Assembly: GCA_020846975.1 (NCBI GenBank)
Contig: JADLCX010000030.1
Coordinates: forward strand, 1 to 64,000
Direction: 5' to 3'
Source of the DNA: Phycisphaerales bacterium
Lineage (GTDB): Bacteria > Planctomycetota > Phycisphaerae > Phycisphaerales > UBA1924
Length of the DNA stretch: 64,000 nucleotides
A program made the translations under genes and the position numbers. The notes beneath the pieces are model-generated. The model did not search any database. It saw only the letters and a program-made list of their open reading frames with translations, and had not been told where the DNA came from. Positions 8,774 through 55,995 of this stretch are shown here, in pieces. Position 1 is the stretch's first letter, and each line of letters begins with the position of its first letter.

Positions 8774-8899
8774 GGCGCGGATGTTACCCCCGACGCGGCG
8801 GAGGTCATCGTGGGAGACCCGGAGGCGATCTCCGTTGGCACGGAGAGCATGTTCGCGGGCACGAAGATCATCTCCGCTGGCACGGAGATCATCTCCGCG
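8774..8899. repeat. 21-bp tandem repeat array, six degenerate units
   Basis: Six 21-base units start at 8774, 8795, 8816, 8837, 8858 and 8879; the last two are nearly identical (GGCACGRAGATCATCTCCGCK). The array fills part of the 625-base spacer between the oxidoreductase gene's 3' end and rpsB. Because 21 is a multiple of three, frames stay open on both strands (heptads such as ISVPAEM on minus), but nothing indicates a real protein. Confidence 0.8.
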
Positions 8900-9000
8900 A
8901 CCCTTATTGGACGCTCGCTTCTCCCTGAAAAGGGGATCAGCCTGCCGGAAAACCCGCGTGGCGGGCTTGCAGCAAGGCTTTGGGCTCCTAGCCACCTAAT

Positions 9001-9057
9001 CGGGGGGTGTTGGGGGAGGGGGTGGGGGGTGGGGGGTGGGGGGTGGGTGGGCGAGGC
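9001..9057. other. Very G-rich tract (+ strand) immediately 3' of the oxidoreductase gene
   Basis: Runs of five or six G are separated by single T or A bases and could fold as a G-quadruplex on the + strand. On the minus-strand transcript of the oxidoreductase the same stretch is C-rich and G-poor directly after the stop codon, the composition of a Rho-utilisation site. Both roles are inference. The rest of 8433-9057 shows only the 21-bp array and no supported gene. Confidence 0.5.
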
Positions 9058-11655
9058 TCACCTCAGCATGGGCAGGCTCCGGCTGGGTTCGACCGTGATG
9101 GCGATGTTCTTGAAGGCCGGGGTTTGGGATTCGGGGTCGGTGGCGGGGGGGACGAGGATGTTGGCCTCGGGGTAGTACATGGCCGCGTTGCCGGGGCGGA
9201 TGTCGGCGGGGCGGATGCGGATGCCGGTCATCTCACCGGTGCCGCTGCGGACGGTCACGCGGTCATCGACCCTCAGCCCGCGCGAGGCGATGTCGTCGGG
9301 GTGCATGAGGATCACCTCGCGCTGGTCCGTGCCGCGGTAGAGGTCGTGGTCCTCGTAGACGACGGTGTTGAACTGGCCTTCCGATCGAATCGTCATCAGG
9401 CGGAGAGGAAAGGCGGAACACAGAGGTCGCGGAGAAGGCACAGAGGGCACGGAGGAAATCCCTGAAAAAGCCTTCCTTGCGTTCTCTGTGTCCACCTCGG
9501 TGCTCTTTGCGTTCCTGTCTTGAATCGGAAGCGGAGGAACGGGGAAGAACCGCGCCCGGCCGGAGGGGGTCTTGAAGTGGGGAGTGTGGAACGTGCGGCC
9601 GGGAATCTGGAACTCCTGGGCAGCCCGCTTCTCCGAAGCGGGAGGCACATCGATCGTCGCGACGGGCTCGTAGCCGGGGATGATCCGCGAGATGGCTTCG
9701 CGGATCGTGGTGTGCCGCGTCATGCCGGCGAGGTCGAGGCCGCCCACTCTGTCGCCGAGCACCTTTCGGAAGATGCGGGTCATGACCTCCACTTCGCTGA
9801 GGGGCGGCCCCTGCTCGCCCGTGTACCGCGCGCGGCCGCCATCGCTGAGGCGGACGTAGTTGAACATCGACTCCTGCGTCGTGCTCTGCGGCTCCTCATC
9901 GCGTGCCAGGACGGGGAGGATGATCGAGGTCCTGCCGCGGCCGTGGATGTGGCCGGTGTTGAGCGTGGTGGAAAGGAAGACGGTGGTGTCGATGCTCCGC
10001 AGGGCGCGGGCGGCGTGCGCGGAATCGGGGCACGAGCCGAAGAGGTTGCCGCCGAGGTGCCAGGCGAAGCGGATCTCGCCTCTCGCGGCCGCGTCGATGC
10101 ACGCGAGCGTGTCCATCCCCGGTGAGGTCGGGAGCGTGATGCCGAACTTGTGCTGCATGGCGGTCAGGACTTCCCACTTCAGCTTCGGCTCGACGCCCAT
10201 CGACCCGACACCCTGCACGTTGGAGTGGCCGCGCAGCGGAAGCAGCCCCGCGCCCGGCCGGCCGAGCATGCCGCGGAGCATCGCGACGGCCGCGATCATG
10301 CGGACGTTGTCGACACCGTGGGTGTGGTGGGTGATGCCCATGGTCCAGGCGAAGACGGTCTTGTTCGAGTTCGCGTAGATCGCCGCAATTCTCTCGATCT
10401 CGGCGCGGGCGATGCCCGACGATGCCTCGATCTCATCCCACGACAGCGCCTCAATCCCCGCGCGGAACTCGTCGAAGTTCTCGGTGTGGTTGGCGAGGTA
10501 GGCTTCGTCGATCGGCAAAGGCGAAGACGGGAACACAGAGGGCACGGAGGGGGACACAGAGAGCACAGAGGAAGGCAAAGTCGAGGTTTGAGAAACTCCG
10601 TTCTTGCCTCTCTCGGTGCTCTCCGTGACTCCTCTGTGCTCTCTGTGTTCCTGCCTTTGGCCTTCGAGCAAGACCTTGGCGATTCCGGCAAACAAAGCCA
10701 GGTCGCCGCCGATGTGCGGCTGGATGTACTCATCCGCGATCTGCGAGCCCTTCGGCGAGAGCATGCTCCGGACATCGCTGGGCACCTTGAAGCGGACCAG
10801 GCCGAGTTCCTTGAGCGGGTTGATGACGATGACCTTGCCGCCGCGGCGGCGGATGTCGATGACCGTGCGCATCAGTCGCGGGTGATTGCTCGCGGGGTTG
10901 CCGCCGATGATGAAGAGCAGGTCACAGCCGTCCTCGCCGGTGAGGTCATCGAGGACGATCGAGGCCGTCCCGCTGCCGGTGATCCCCTTGAGCGCGACAC
11001 CGCTGGCCTGGTGGCAGAAGTACGAGCAGTTGTTGATGTTGTTGGTGCCGTAGACGCGGCCGAGCAGGTTGAGCAGGAACGCGGCCTCGTTGCTCGAGCG
11101 GCCTGAGAAGTAGAAGAAGACGGGCAGCGGACGCCGCGGAGGACGCAGAGTTGTCGCAGAGTTCGCGGAGGAAGACTCTGGTCTGGCGTTCTCCGCTGAC
11201 TCTGCGTTGCCATCCGTGATTTCTGTGCTGTCGGAAGTTCGGGCTTCCTTGAGCGCACCCGCGACGCGCTCGATCGCTTCTTCCCACGAGATCGCGCGGT
11301 AGCTCTTGTCCCCGGGCTCGGCGATCAGCGGCTCGACCAGCCGCCCCGAGTGCTCAAGCTCGCGCGGCGTGAATCGGGAGAGCCGATCGACGCCGAACTC
11401 GGCGAAGAACCCCTCGCGGATCCGCCCCTGCATATCGGCGGCCATCGCCTGCACGCTCTTCTTGCAGACCTCGGGGAACCTGCCGCGCTCGTTGACCATG
11501 CCGCCTAGCTGGCCGCCCATGCCCAGGGCGCAGGTCTTGCAGGCGTTCTTCGATCGCATCGCCCGCCACATGCGCAGAAAGCCGCCCGAGGCTCGGGCTT
11601 TCTTGAGTGTGTAGATGATCGCGGGCCAGCCGCCAGCGGCCCTGGGGGAAGTCAT
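9058..11655 (-). CDS. FdhF/YdeP-family molybdopterin oxidoreductase carrying three in-frame repeat insertions
   Basis: This 865-residue protein resembles the FdhF/YdeP group of molybdopterin oxidoreductases (formate-dehydrogenase-like). Visible family segments are RAMRSKNACKTCALGMGGQ near the N-terminus, FSGRSSNEAAFLLNLLGR, NNCSYFCHQASG, the LFIIGGNPASNHPR pterin-site segment, and the C-terminal LMTIRSEGQFNTVVYE. The substrate is not known. The reading frame contains three repeat-derived segments of about 40-50 residues, rich in Ser/Pro/Glu, at 11131-11242, 10519-10662 and 9405-9522; they interrupt otherwise recognisable blocks yet keep the frame. An ATG at 11655 is chosen over the GTG at 11676. 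A TACCAT hexamer 7 bases upstream may be a leaderless -10 box. No fdhD or electron-transfer partner is adjacent. Confidence 0.8.
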   Translation of the reverse strand: MTSPRAAGGWPAIIYTLKKARASGGFLRMWRAMRSKNACKTCALGMGGQLGGMVNERGRFPEVCKKSVQAMAADMQGRIREGFFAEFGVDRLSRFTPRELEHSGRLVEPLIAEPGDKSYRAISWEEAIERVAGALKEARTSDSTEITDGNAESAENARPESSSANSATTLRPPRRPLPVFFYFSGRSSNEAAFLLNLLGRVYGTNNINNCSYFCHQASGVALKGITGSGTASIVLDDLTGEDGCDLLFIIGGNPASNHPRLMRTVIDIRRRGGKVIVINPLKELGLVRFKVPSDVRSMLSPKGSQIADEYIQPHIGGDLALFAGIAKVLLEGQRQEHREHRGVTESTERGKNGVSQTSTLPSSVLSVSPSVPSVFPSSPLPIDEAYLANHTENFDEFRAGIEALSWDEIEASSGIARAEIERIAAIYANSNKTVFAWTMGITHHTHGVDNVRMIAAVAMLRGMLGRPGAGLLPLRGHSNVQGVGSMGVEPKLKWEVLTAMQHKFGITLPTSPGMDTLACIDAAARGEIRFAWHLGGNLFGSCPDSAHAARALRSIDTTVFLSTTLNTGHIHGRGRTSIILPVLARDEEPQSTTQESMFNYVRLSDGGRARYTGEQGPPLSEVEVMTRIFRKVLGDRVGGLDLAGMTRHTTIREAISRIIPGYEPVATIDVPPASEKRAAQEFQIPGRTFHTPHFKTPSGRARFFPVPPLPIQDRNAKSTEVDTENARKAFSGISSVPSVPSPRPLCSAFPLRLMTIRSEGQFNTVVYEDHDLYRGTDQREVILMHPDDIASRGLRVDDRVTVRSGTGEMTGIRIRPADIRPGNAAMYYPEANILVPPATDPESQTPAFKNIAITVEPSRSLPMLR
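9405..9522. repeat. 'CACAGAG' palindromic element, copy A, inside oxidoreductase gene
   Basis: On the + strand the left arm is rich in GGAACACAGAGG/GGCACAGAGGGCACGG and the right arm carries TTCTCTGTGTCC and GTGCTCTTTGCGTTCC, so the halves form an imperfect inverted repeat. In the protein it gives a Ser/Pro/Glu/Arg-rich insert between the family blocks TPSGRARFF and LMTIRSEGQF. Confidence 0.7.
9624..9642. repeat. Perfect palindrome CCCGCTTC-tcc-GAAGCGGG inside oxidoreductase gene
   Basis: The 8-bp arms with a TCC centre match the architecture of the palindrome at 7391-7411. It encodes a short Pro-Ala-Ser-Glu-Lys-Arg stretch just before the QEFQIPGRTFH family block. Confidence 0.5.
10519..10662. 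repeat. 'CACAGAG' palindromic element, copy B, inside oxidoreductase gene
   Basis: This is the clearest copy: GGGAACACAGAGGGCACGG on the left and CCTCTGTGCTCTCTGTGTTCC on the right form a long imperfect inverted repeat. The in-frame product is a His/Arg/Glu stretch followed by a Ser/Pro/Val stretch between FAGIAKVLLEG and IDEAYLANHTE. Confidence 0.75.
11131..11242. repeat. 'CACAGAG'-type palindromic element, copy C (diverged), inside oxidoreductase gene
   Basis: GCGGAGGACGCAGAG and CGCAGAGTTCGCGGAGG on the left, with CGTTCTCCGCTGACTCTGCGTT and TTTCTGTGCTGTC on the right, form a weaker inverted repeat. The product is an in-frame Ser/Asn/Ala/Glu-rich insert between VAGALKEAR and VFFYFSGRSSNEA. 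Confidence 0.65.
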
Positions 11656-11700
11656 GGACCGGATGGTACAGCGCACCGCCGGGCGGATCGAAACCCGGCG

Positions 11701-55962: not shown

Positions 55963-55995
55963 AGGAACGCAGAGGACACAGAGAAGGCGCAGAGG
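55963..55995. repeat. Half copy of the 'CACAGAG' dispersed element
   Basis: AGGAACGCAGAGGACACAGAGAAGGCGCAGAGG repeats the arm sequence of the elements found inside the oxidoreductase gene at 9405-11242. The opposite arm is missing. It lies in the 878-base spacer upstream of the fibronectin-III gene, next to a G-rich tract (56003-56029). Confidence 0.6.

Follow-up and report, generated by a model that had tools for sequence, protein, structure and literature searches.

Palindromic repeats within genes are known from other bacteria. Nearly half of the RPEs of Rickettsia conorii, and 11 out of 12 in other species, are found within ORFs (PMC10969869), while intragenic REPs occur in several species, where a single uvrA or uvrB gene can contain two of them (PMC3733652). 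The intervening sequence of 23S rRNA is a hairpin whose loop encloses a small ORF, and is regarded as selfish (PMC4990558). A palindrome lying in frame in a gene is thus an outcome of a known kind, from both RPEs and intragenic REPs, and we here describe three of them in a single enzyme gene of a planctomycete. The window analyzed, i.e. the whole stretch of 64,000 nucleotides, is part of a genome of 4.2 Mb. The literature searched, which included few subscription papers, held no description of three palindromes in one gene or of this element family, and searches for the letters of the repeat and for in-frame planctomycete palindromes returned nothing on the element. Taken together, the data presented below are probably explained by three separate events in which ORF-less hairpin elements, MITE-like and apparently of the GxxExxY type, were inserted into loops of one insertion-tolerant enzyme.

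The host enzyme and its three inserts

All three inserts, here called A, B and C in the order in which they are translated, are situated in one FdhF/YdeP-family gene (fdhF), and the arms of two of them could be matched to those of a GxxExxY element elsewhere in the genome, the C36 copy. The features are as follows.

9058-11676, minus strand: FdhF/YdeP-family molybdopterin oxidoreductase gene, 872 aa, intact, hosting all three inserts
11131-11242, no strand: insert A, a decayed palindrome of the CGCGGAG/ACAACGC subfamily, adding 36 aa (aa 147-182), with pLDDT <50 at aa 151-175
10519-10662, no strand: insert B, a near-perfect hairpin of CACAGAG type, adding 47 aa (aa 340-386), with pLDDT <50 at aa 355-384
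10520-10574, plus strand: left arm of insert B, identical to an arm of the C36 GxxExxY element at 45/48 positions
10607-10660, minus strand: right arm of insert B, identical to an arm of the C36 GxxExxY element at 41/47 positions
9405-9522, no strand: insert C, a palindrome of CACAGAG type in intermediate decay, adding ~32 aa (low-occupancy aa 721-751), with pLDDT <50 at aa 722-754
9409-9460, plus strand: left arm of insert C, identical to an arm of the C36 GxxExxY element at 44/47 positions
9471-9522, minus strand: right arm of insert C, identical to an arm of the C36 GxxExxY element at 39/48 positions

The 872 aa ORF scored 659.7 bits against TIGR01701 (FdhF/YdeP), above the cut-off of 582.15, and contains neither stops nor frameshifts. 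In the comparison with homologues, all 131 family-invariant residues and 223 out of 227 near-invariant ones were found to be kept, and GC at third codon positions is of the coding type (86-93%) on either side of every insert. Three insertions within one gene might suggest that fdhF is degenerating and that insertions into it have become inconsequential. This is made very improbable by the open frame and the coding-type composition on all sides of the inserts, and the conservation of every invariant residue led us to reject decay as an explanation. An AlphaFold2 model of the enzyme reached a pTM of 0.84, and the solved structures nearest to it are mostly formate dehydrogenases. The residues with pLDDT below 50 fall within the three inserts, at the positions listed above, with a few further short low-pLDDT stretches outside them. 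Judging from this model, the inserts are most readily interpreted as disordered loops of an otherwise sound enzyme. Directly 3' of the fdhF stop codon lies a G-rich tract (GGGGGGTGGGGGGTGGGG, 9005-9050 in the window), and a short tandem array of ~21-nt units (CACGGAGATCATCTCCGCTGG), which are partly palindromic, is found on the same side of the gene at 8820-8900.

The insert sites were compared with 14 relatives and then with 84 homologues, the majority of them planctomycete and taken from named genomes. Alignment gaps in the homologues are located at query residues 147-182, 340-386 and 721-751, i.e. at the three palindromic DNA segments. Site A is 15 aa long in 80 of the 84 homologues, compared to 51 in the query, while the corresponding lengths are 15 aa (79 homologues) versus 62 for site B and 33-34 aa (74 homologues) versus 66 for site C. 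At each site the extra residues are hence absent in roughly nine out of ten homologues. The original prediction had placed three in-frame palindromic segments in this gene, and the gaps agree with them within a few bases; its expectation that the sites would be empty in homologues, and that the gene is not decaying, was likewise borne out. Of the ~40-50 residues that it proposed per insert, the figure is right for B (47), with A (36) and C (~32) slightly lower. CACAGAG-type arms, which it ascribed to all three, are found only in B and C, as A turned out to be a decayed member of the CGCGGAG/ACAACGC sister subfamily.

Paired arms of the CACAGAG type were found at none of 80 fdhF homologue loci. 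One homologue (L217, JAIOPX010000164.1) carries an unrelated palindromic repeat (CCCCTCTCCCCTTTGGGGAGAGG type), in frame in the loop of insert C, where it adds ~41 aa. In the window the element is read in different frames, i.e. as CAC-AGA in B and as ACA-GAA/GAG-like codons in A and C, and with two element frames in use no particular peptide appears to be favored. We ascribe the retention of the three inserts to net lengths divisible by three, to the required frame being open and to their position in loops.

Build, age and distribution of the repeat family

Each arm consists of about four 10-nt units (ACACAGAGGG, CACGGAGAAG and similar, i.e. CACAGAG/CGCGGAG), and the second arm is the inverse of the first. 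When up to two mismatches were allowed, the unit CACAGAGNNCACNGAG was matched 12 times in the window, compared to 2.0 expected, and none of 100 shuffles gave as high a number. A lone half arm of the CACAGAG-type repeat (AACGCAGAGGACACAGAGAAGGCGCAGAGG), with its partner absent, is found at 55965-55992 of the window. Fold z-scores were about -10 for B, about -4 for C and only -1.8 to -2.2 for A, and the predicted RNA hairpin of B amounts to about -84 to -94 kcal/mol. A hairpin of this strength could conceivably be excised from, or cut in, the transcript, as RNase III cuts the hairpins of rRNA intervening sequences (PMC4990558), so that the protein would lack the inserts. We find this scarcely credible, given that all three inserts are in frame and free of stops, which would be needless if they were removed, and that A is a weak hairpin. 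Moreover, rejoining of a cut mRNA is not known from bacteria. An Rfam search with the elements returned only generic long-hairpin miRNA models, all of them below gathering.

With the copies in the window excluded, the best match elsewhere in the genome scored 60.5 for B, 47.5 for C and 29.0 for A (at C89:61802), compared to dinucleotide-shuffle maxima of 25, 20 and 19, respectively. In the genome-wide ranking of matches, A, B and C were not one another's closest relatives. We rejected the possibility that one insert had been duplicated locally to give three, as each has good matches elsewhere in the genome. Their unequal decay, together with their likeness to copies elsewhere, indicates that the inserts came singly and without duplication within the gene, and it is simplest to assume that each arrived separately and at its own time. 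Close relatives of the species were sought and none were found, so that ages are judged only by the decay of the palindromes; by this measure B is young, C intermediate and A old.

A covariance model showed the family to be dispersed through the genome, with subfamilies, although the model scores of A, B and C are non-independent, as all three were included when it was built. Copies with near-identical loops (93-95%) are found on separate contigs, C22 and C68. Upstream of the elements on these two contigs (L062 on C68 and L063 on C22) a dispersed repeat of 564 bp, with 91% identity between the two, links an array of ~21-nt units (TCCGAGCGTCCGGATAAGTTG) to the CACAGAG hairpin. A search for target duplication at the copies, whose ends are approximate, was negative, with flank words averaging 4.39 versus 4.16 when permuted and 24 of 200 permutations being as high. 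On average 3.68 of the six frames are open per copy, as compared to 2.45 +/- 0.18 in dinucleotide shuffles. Having few stops in any frame should make it easier for the repeat to survive inside coding sequence, so that a loop insert of the right length is survivable.

Copies were counted by pattern and covariance-model searches together with fetched stretches, weaker matches and lone arms being read in part, and the gene context of 31 copies was judged with a codon-usage gene model. The genome-wide count of arms within versus between genes, which the original prediction had put forward as a check, came out as 4 versus 27 of the 31 copies read in this genome. Besides A, B and C, the fourth intragenic copy lies in an ABC exporter; compared with 11 homologues, this protein has ~40 additional residues at the element, between its membrane domain and its ATPase domain. 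Among 39 copies examined in three further genomes of the order, none is intragenic. One in-gene call (L308) was rejected as a spurious antisense ORF, the element being located between two minus-strand genes. Over the four genomes, 66 of the 70 examined copies are consequently intergenic and four are intragenic, three of the latter in fdhF. Random placement would put most of them in genes, with at least 83.5% of the window being coding (P about 1e-17 for the 31 copies). The elements thus have no preference for genes, rather the reverse, and fdhF is the exception.

These numbers bear on the possibility of selfish DNA of the RPE kind that relies on open frames in genes for its spread. In-frame insertion, a palindrome and a stop-poor sequence would all agree with it, as would an outcome that is the same as in Rickettsia (PMC10969869), but with only 4 of 70 copies in genes, three of them in one gene, and with two different element frames in use, it appears improbable. 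It had originally been proposed that insertion tolerates or selects open frames: tolerance fits the excess of open frames over shuffles, while selection finds no support, given the intergenic majority and the differing frames that are read.

That three of the four in-gene copies should share one gene is about a one-in-a-million event, according to a hand estimate with ~3,500 genes and copies spread by gene length. Either the enzyme is unusually tolerant of loop insertions, or something nearby attracts insertion. Since some homologues, including L217, carry extra residues at the same loops, we favor loop tolerance as the cause of the three copies.

GxxExxY genes between inverted arms

A fuller form of the element is found in the same genome. 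In the C36 copy (L132:3104-3751) a GxxExxY gene lies between arms of the same repeat, and its ORF scored 126.1 bits against TIGR04256 (GxxExxY), above the cut-off of 35. The left arms of B and C are 92-94% identical to the C36 arms (45/48 and 44/47 positions, respectively), whereas insert A is too decayed for linking to GxxExxY arms. The C36 unit also has two successive right arms (L132:3620-3751), with the ORF extending into the first of these. Inverted arms flank 29 of the 30 GxxExxY loci of the order, 24 of them with at least two CRCNGAG units, and 20 out of 22 loci in a wider sample of the phylum. The CRCNGAG unit itself is present at only 10 of these 22 loci outside the order, other arms in the phylum having units related to it, e.g. 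CACGAAG and CATGAAG, and CACAGAG-type arms recur at a GxxExxY locus on a Bacteroides plasmid. Among control gene flanks, two out of 22 had such arms. GxxExxY genes were found in 63 of 101 genomes of the order. By association with these flanking arms, which are of the same type, the inserts resemble an empty, i.e. ORF-less, version of the GxxExxY hairpin element.

The genome harbors three GxxExxY genes in total, not all of which agree with this picture, as one has CACAGAG arms, one has arms of another sequence and one (C20) has none. Apart from the C36 gene, one of them near a contig end (L053, C22:124218-124553) was seen by eye to adjoin inverted repeats of a second type (CACAGATGACCCAGATGGACACAGA).

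No function for the GxxExxY family (TIGR04256, Pfam PF13366) was given in the literature searched, with few subscription papers covered. Invariant in 25 GxxExxY sequences are E44, Y47, D83, E93-x-K95, Q107 and Y111, which we take to be the residues that should be present if the protein is a PD-(D/E)XK nuclease carrying the QxxxY motif of Cas4/RecB-type enzymes. When its fold was predicted (pLDDT 91.5), the best match was SSO0001 (Z 9.5), and restriction endonucleases, Hjc resolvase, Cas4 and AddAB were matched with lower Z. Motif and model together point to GxxExxY as a predicted PD-(D/E)XK nuclease with a Cas4/lambda-exonuclease/resolvase-like fold and intact motif residues. Ten nucleotides being about one helical turn, the spacing of units in the long inverted arms would suit a nuclease that acts on hairpins or cruciforms. 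As regards the mobility of the GxxExxY hairpin element, we infer that the predicted nuclease would recognize the hairpin or cruciform formed by the arms and drive arm copying or insertion, in cis as well as, for ORF-less copies, in trans. Insertion would leave no detectable target duplication, and selection would afterwards purge nearly all of the gene-breaking copies.

A serious rival, if an unlikely one, is that a homing-type GxxExxY gene has settled in pre-existing palindromes. The palindromes would then be older intergenic hairpins of the host, terminator-like or connected to RNA processing, that were spread by recombination or template switching, and the in-gene copies would be strays. 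Consistent with this, copies fill intergenic gaps right beside genes, some GxxExxY genes have arms of other sequences, and the ORF-less copies in this genome (at least 31) far outnumber the single GxxExxY copy with these arms. On the other hand, the near-identical loops on C22 and C68, which are different contigs, and the entry into protein genes on at least four occasions argue that the hairpins themselves move.

Separate insertion of mobile, ORF-less hairpins hence remains the preferred reading, and it may be extended to a more tentative scheme for the group as a whole. Here, CACAGAG hairpins and GxxExxY genes would possibly constitute one bacterial mobile-element class, in which a single small Cas4-like PD-(D/E)XK nuclease, acting on the long inverted arms of 10-nt units, copies hairpins and inserts them without target duplication, and ORF-less copies moved in trans sometimes become translated loops, with the IVP hairpins as a sister class having another protein and private arms. 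GxxExxY is a common small-protein family whose genes are almost always found inside inverted arms, mostly of one repeat type in this order, and with arm-only copies in the same genomes this suggests a testable role for it, i.e. as a nuclease acting on hairpins and moving them. From their sequence, the three retained inserts suggest that hairpins of this kind can be turned into part of a protein. As its inserts are visibly of three different ages, fdhF would constitute a natural case, outside Rickettsia and the REPs, in which mobile DNA has lengthened a protein step by step.

Comparison with described repeat systems

The RPEs of Rickettsia, 100-150 bp in length, are palindromic repeats that have entered protein genes in frame and are tolerated by the proteins, and the inserts are likewise in-frame palindromes that are absent from homologues. 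A large share of the RPEs is found in genes, whereas here 66 of 70 copies are intergenic (with 4/31 and 0/39 in genes) and two frames are used. The likeness to RPEs that was originally drawn is therefore valid for the outcome but does not extend to how the copies are distributed over the genome. Intragenic REPs (GTAG/CGTC repeats; PMC3733652) are also short palindromes, mostly intergenic and at times in frame in genes, but the window elements have another sequence and a larger unit, and a search of the text of that paper gave neither CACAGAG nor CTCTGTG. REPs furthermore go with RAYT transposases, whereas the RAYT genes here are without arms. A RAYT (HUH) transposase as mover was rejected, as none of the seven Y1_Tnp matches in the genome is located beside paired arms.

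With MITEs the elements share inverted ends, the lack of an ORF, short length and dispersed copies, as well as a fuller form with the same ends. The candidate autonomous relative would be the C36 GxxExxY copy, which has the same arms and an activity that is only predicted. Unlike in MITEs, target duplication was sought and not seen, and the gene of the fuller form encodes a predicted PD-(D/E)XK nuclease rather than a known transposase. The 23S rRNA intervening sequence with S23/IVP offers another parallel, as IVP-family genes of the order are also situated in inverted arms (25 out of 33), but the window elements differ in lying in a protein gene, in their ORF-less loop and in their GxxExxY-type arms. 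At the loci of IVP (PF05635, a four-helix bundle; L256-L284 and L056-L060), the inverted arms are made up of short tandem units with a sequence private to each locus, and a small ORF in a repeat-armed hairpin is, as these PF05635 loci of the order indicate, a general architecture.

Lastly, the GxxExxY family (TIGR04256/PF13366) has its genes between arms of the same repeat, both in this genome and in the order, the difference being that the window inserts are without an ORF. The closer kinship of the inserts is with these hairpins carrying GxxExxY genes, rather than with the RPEs.
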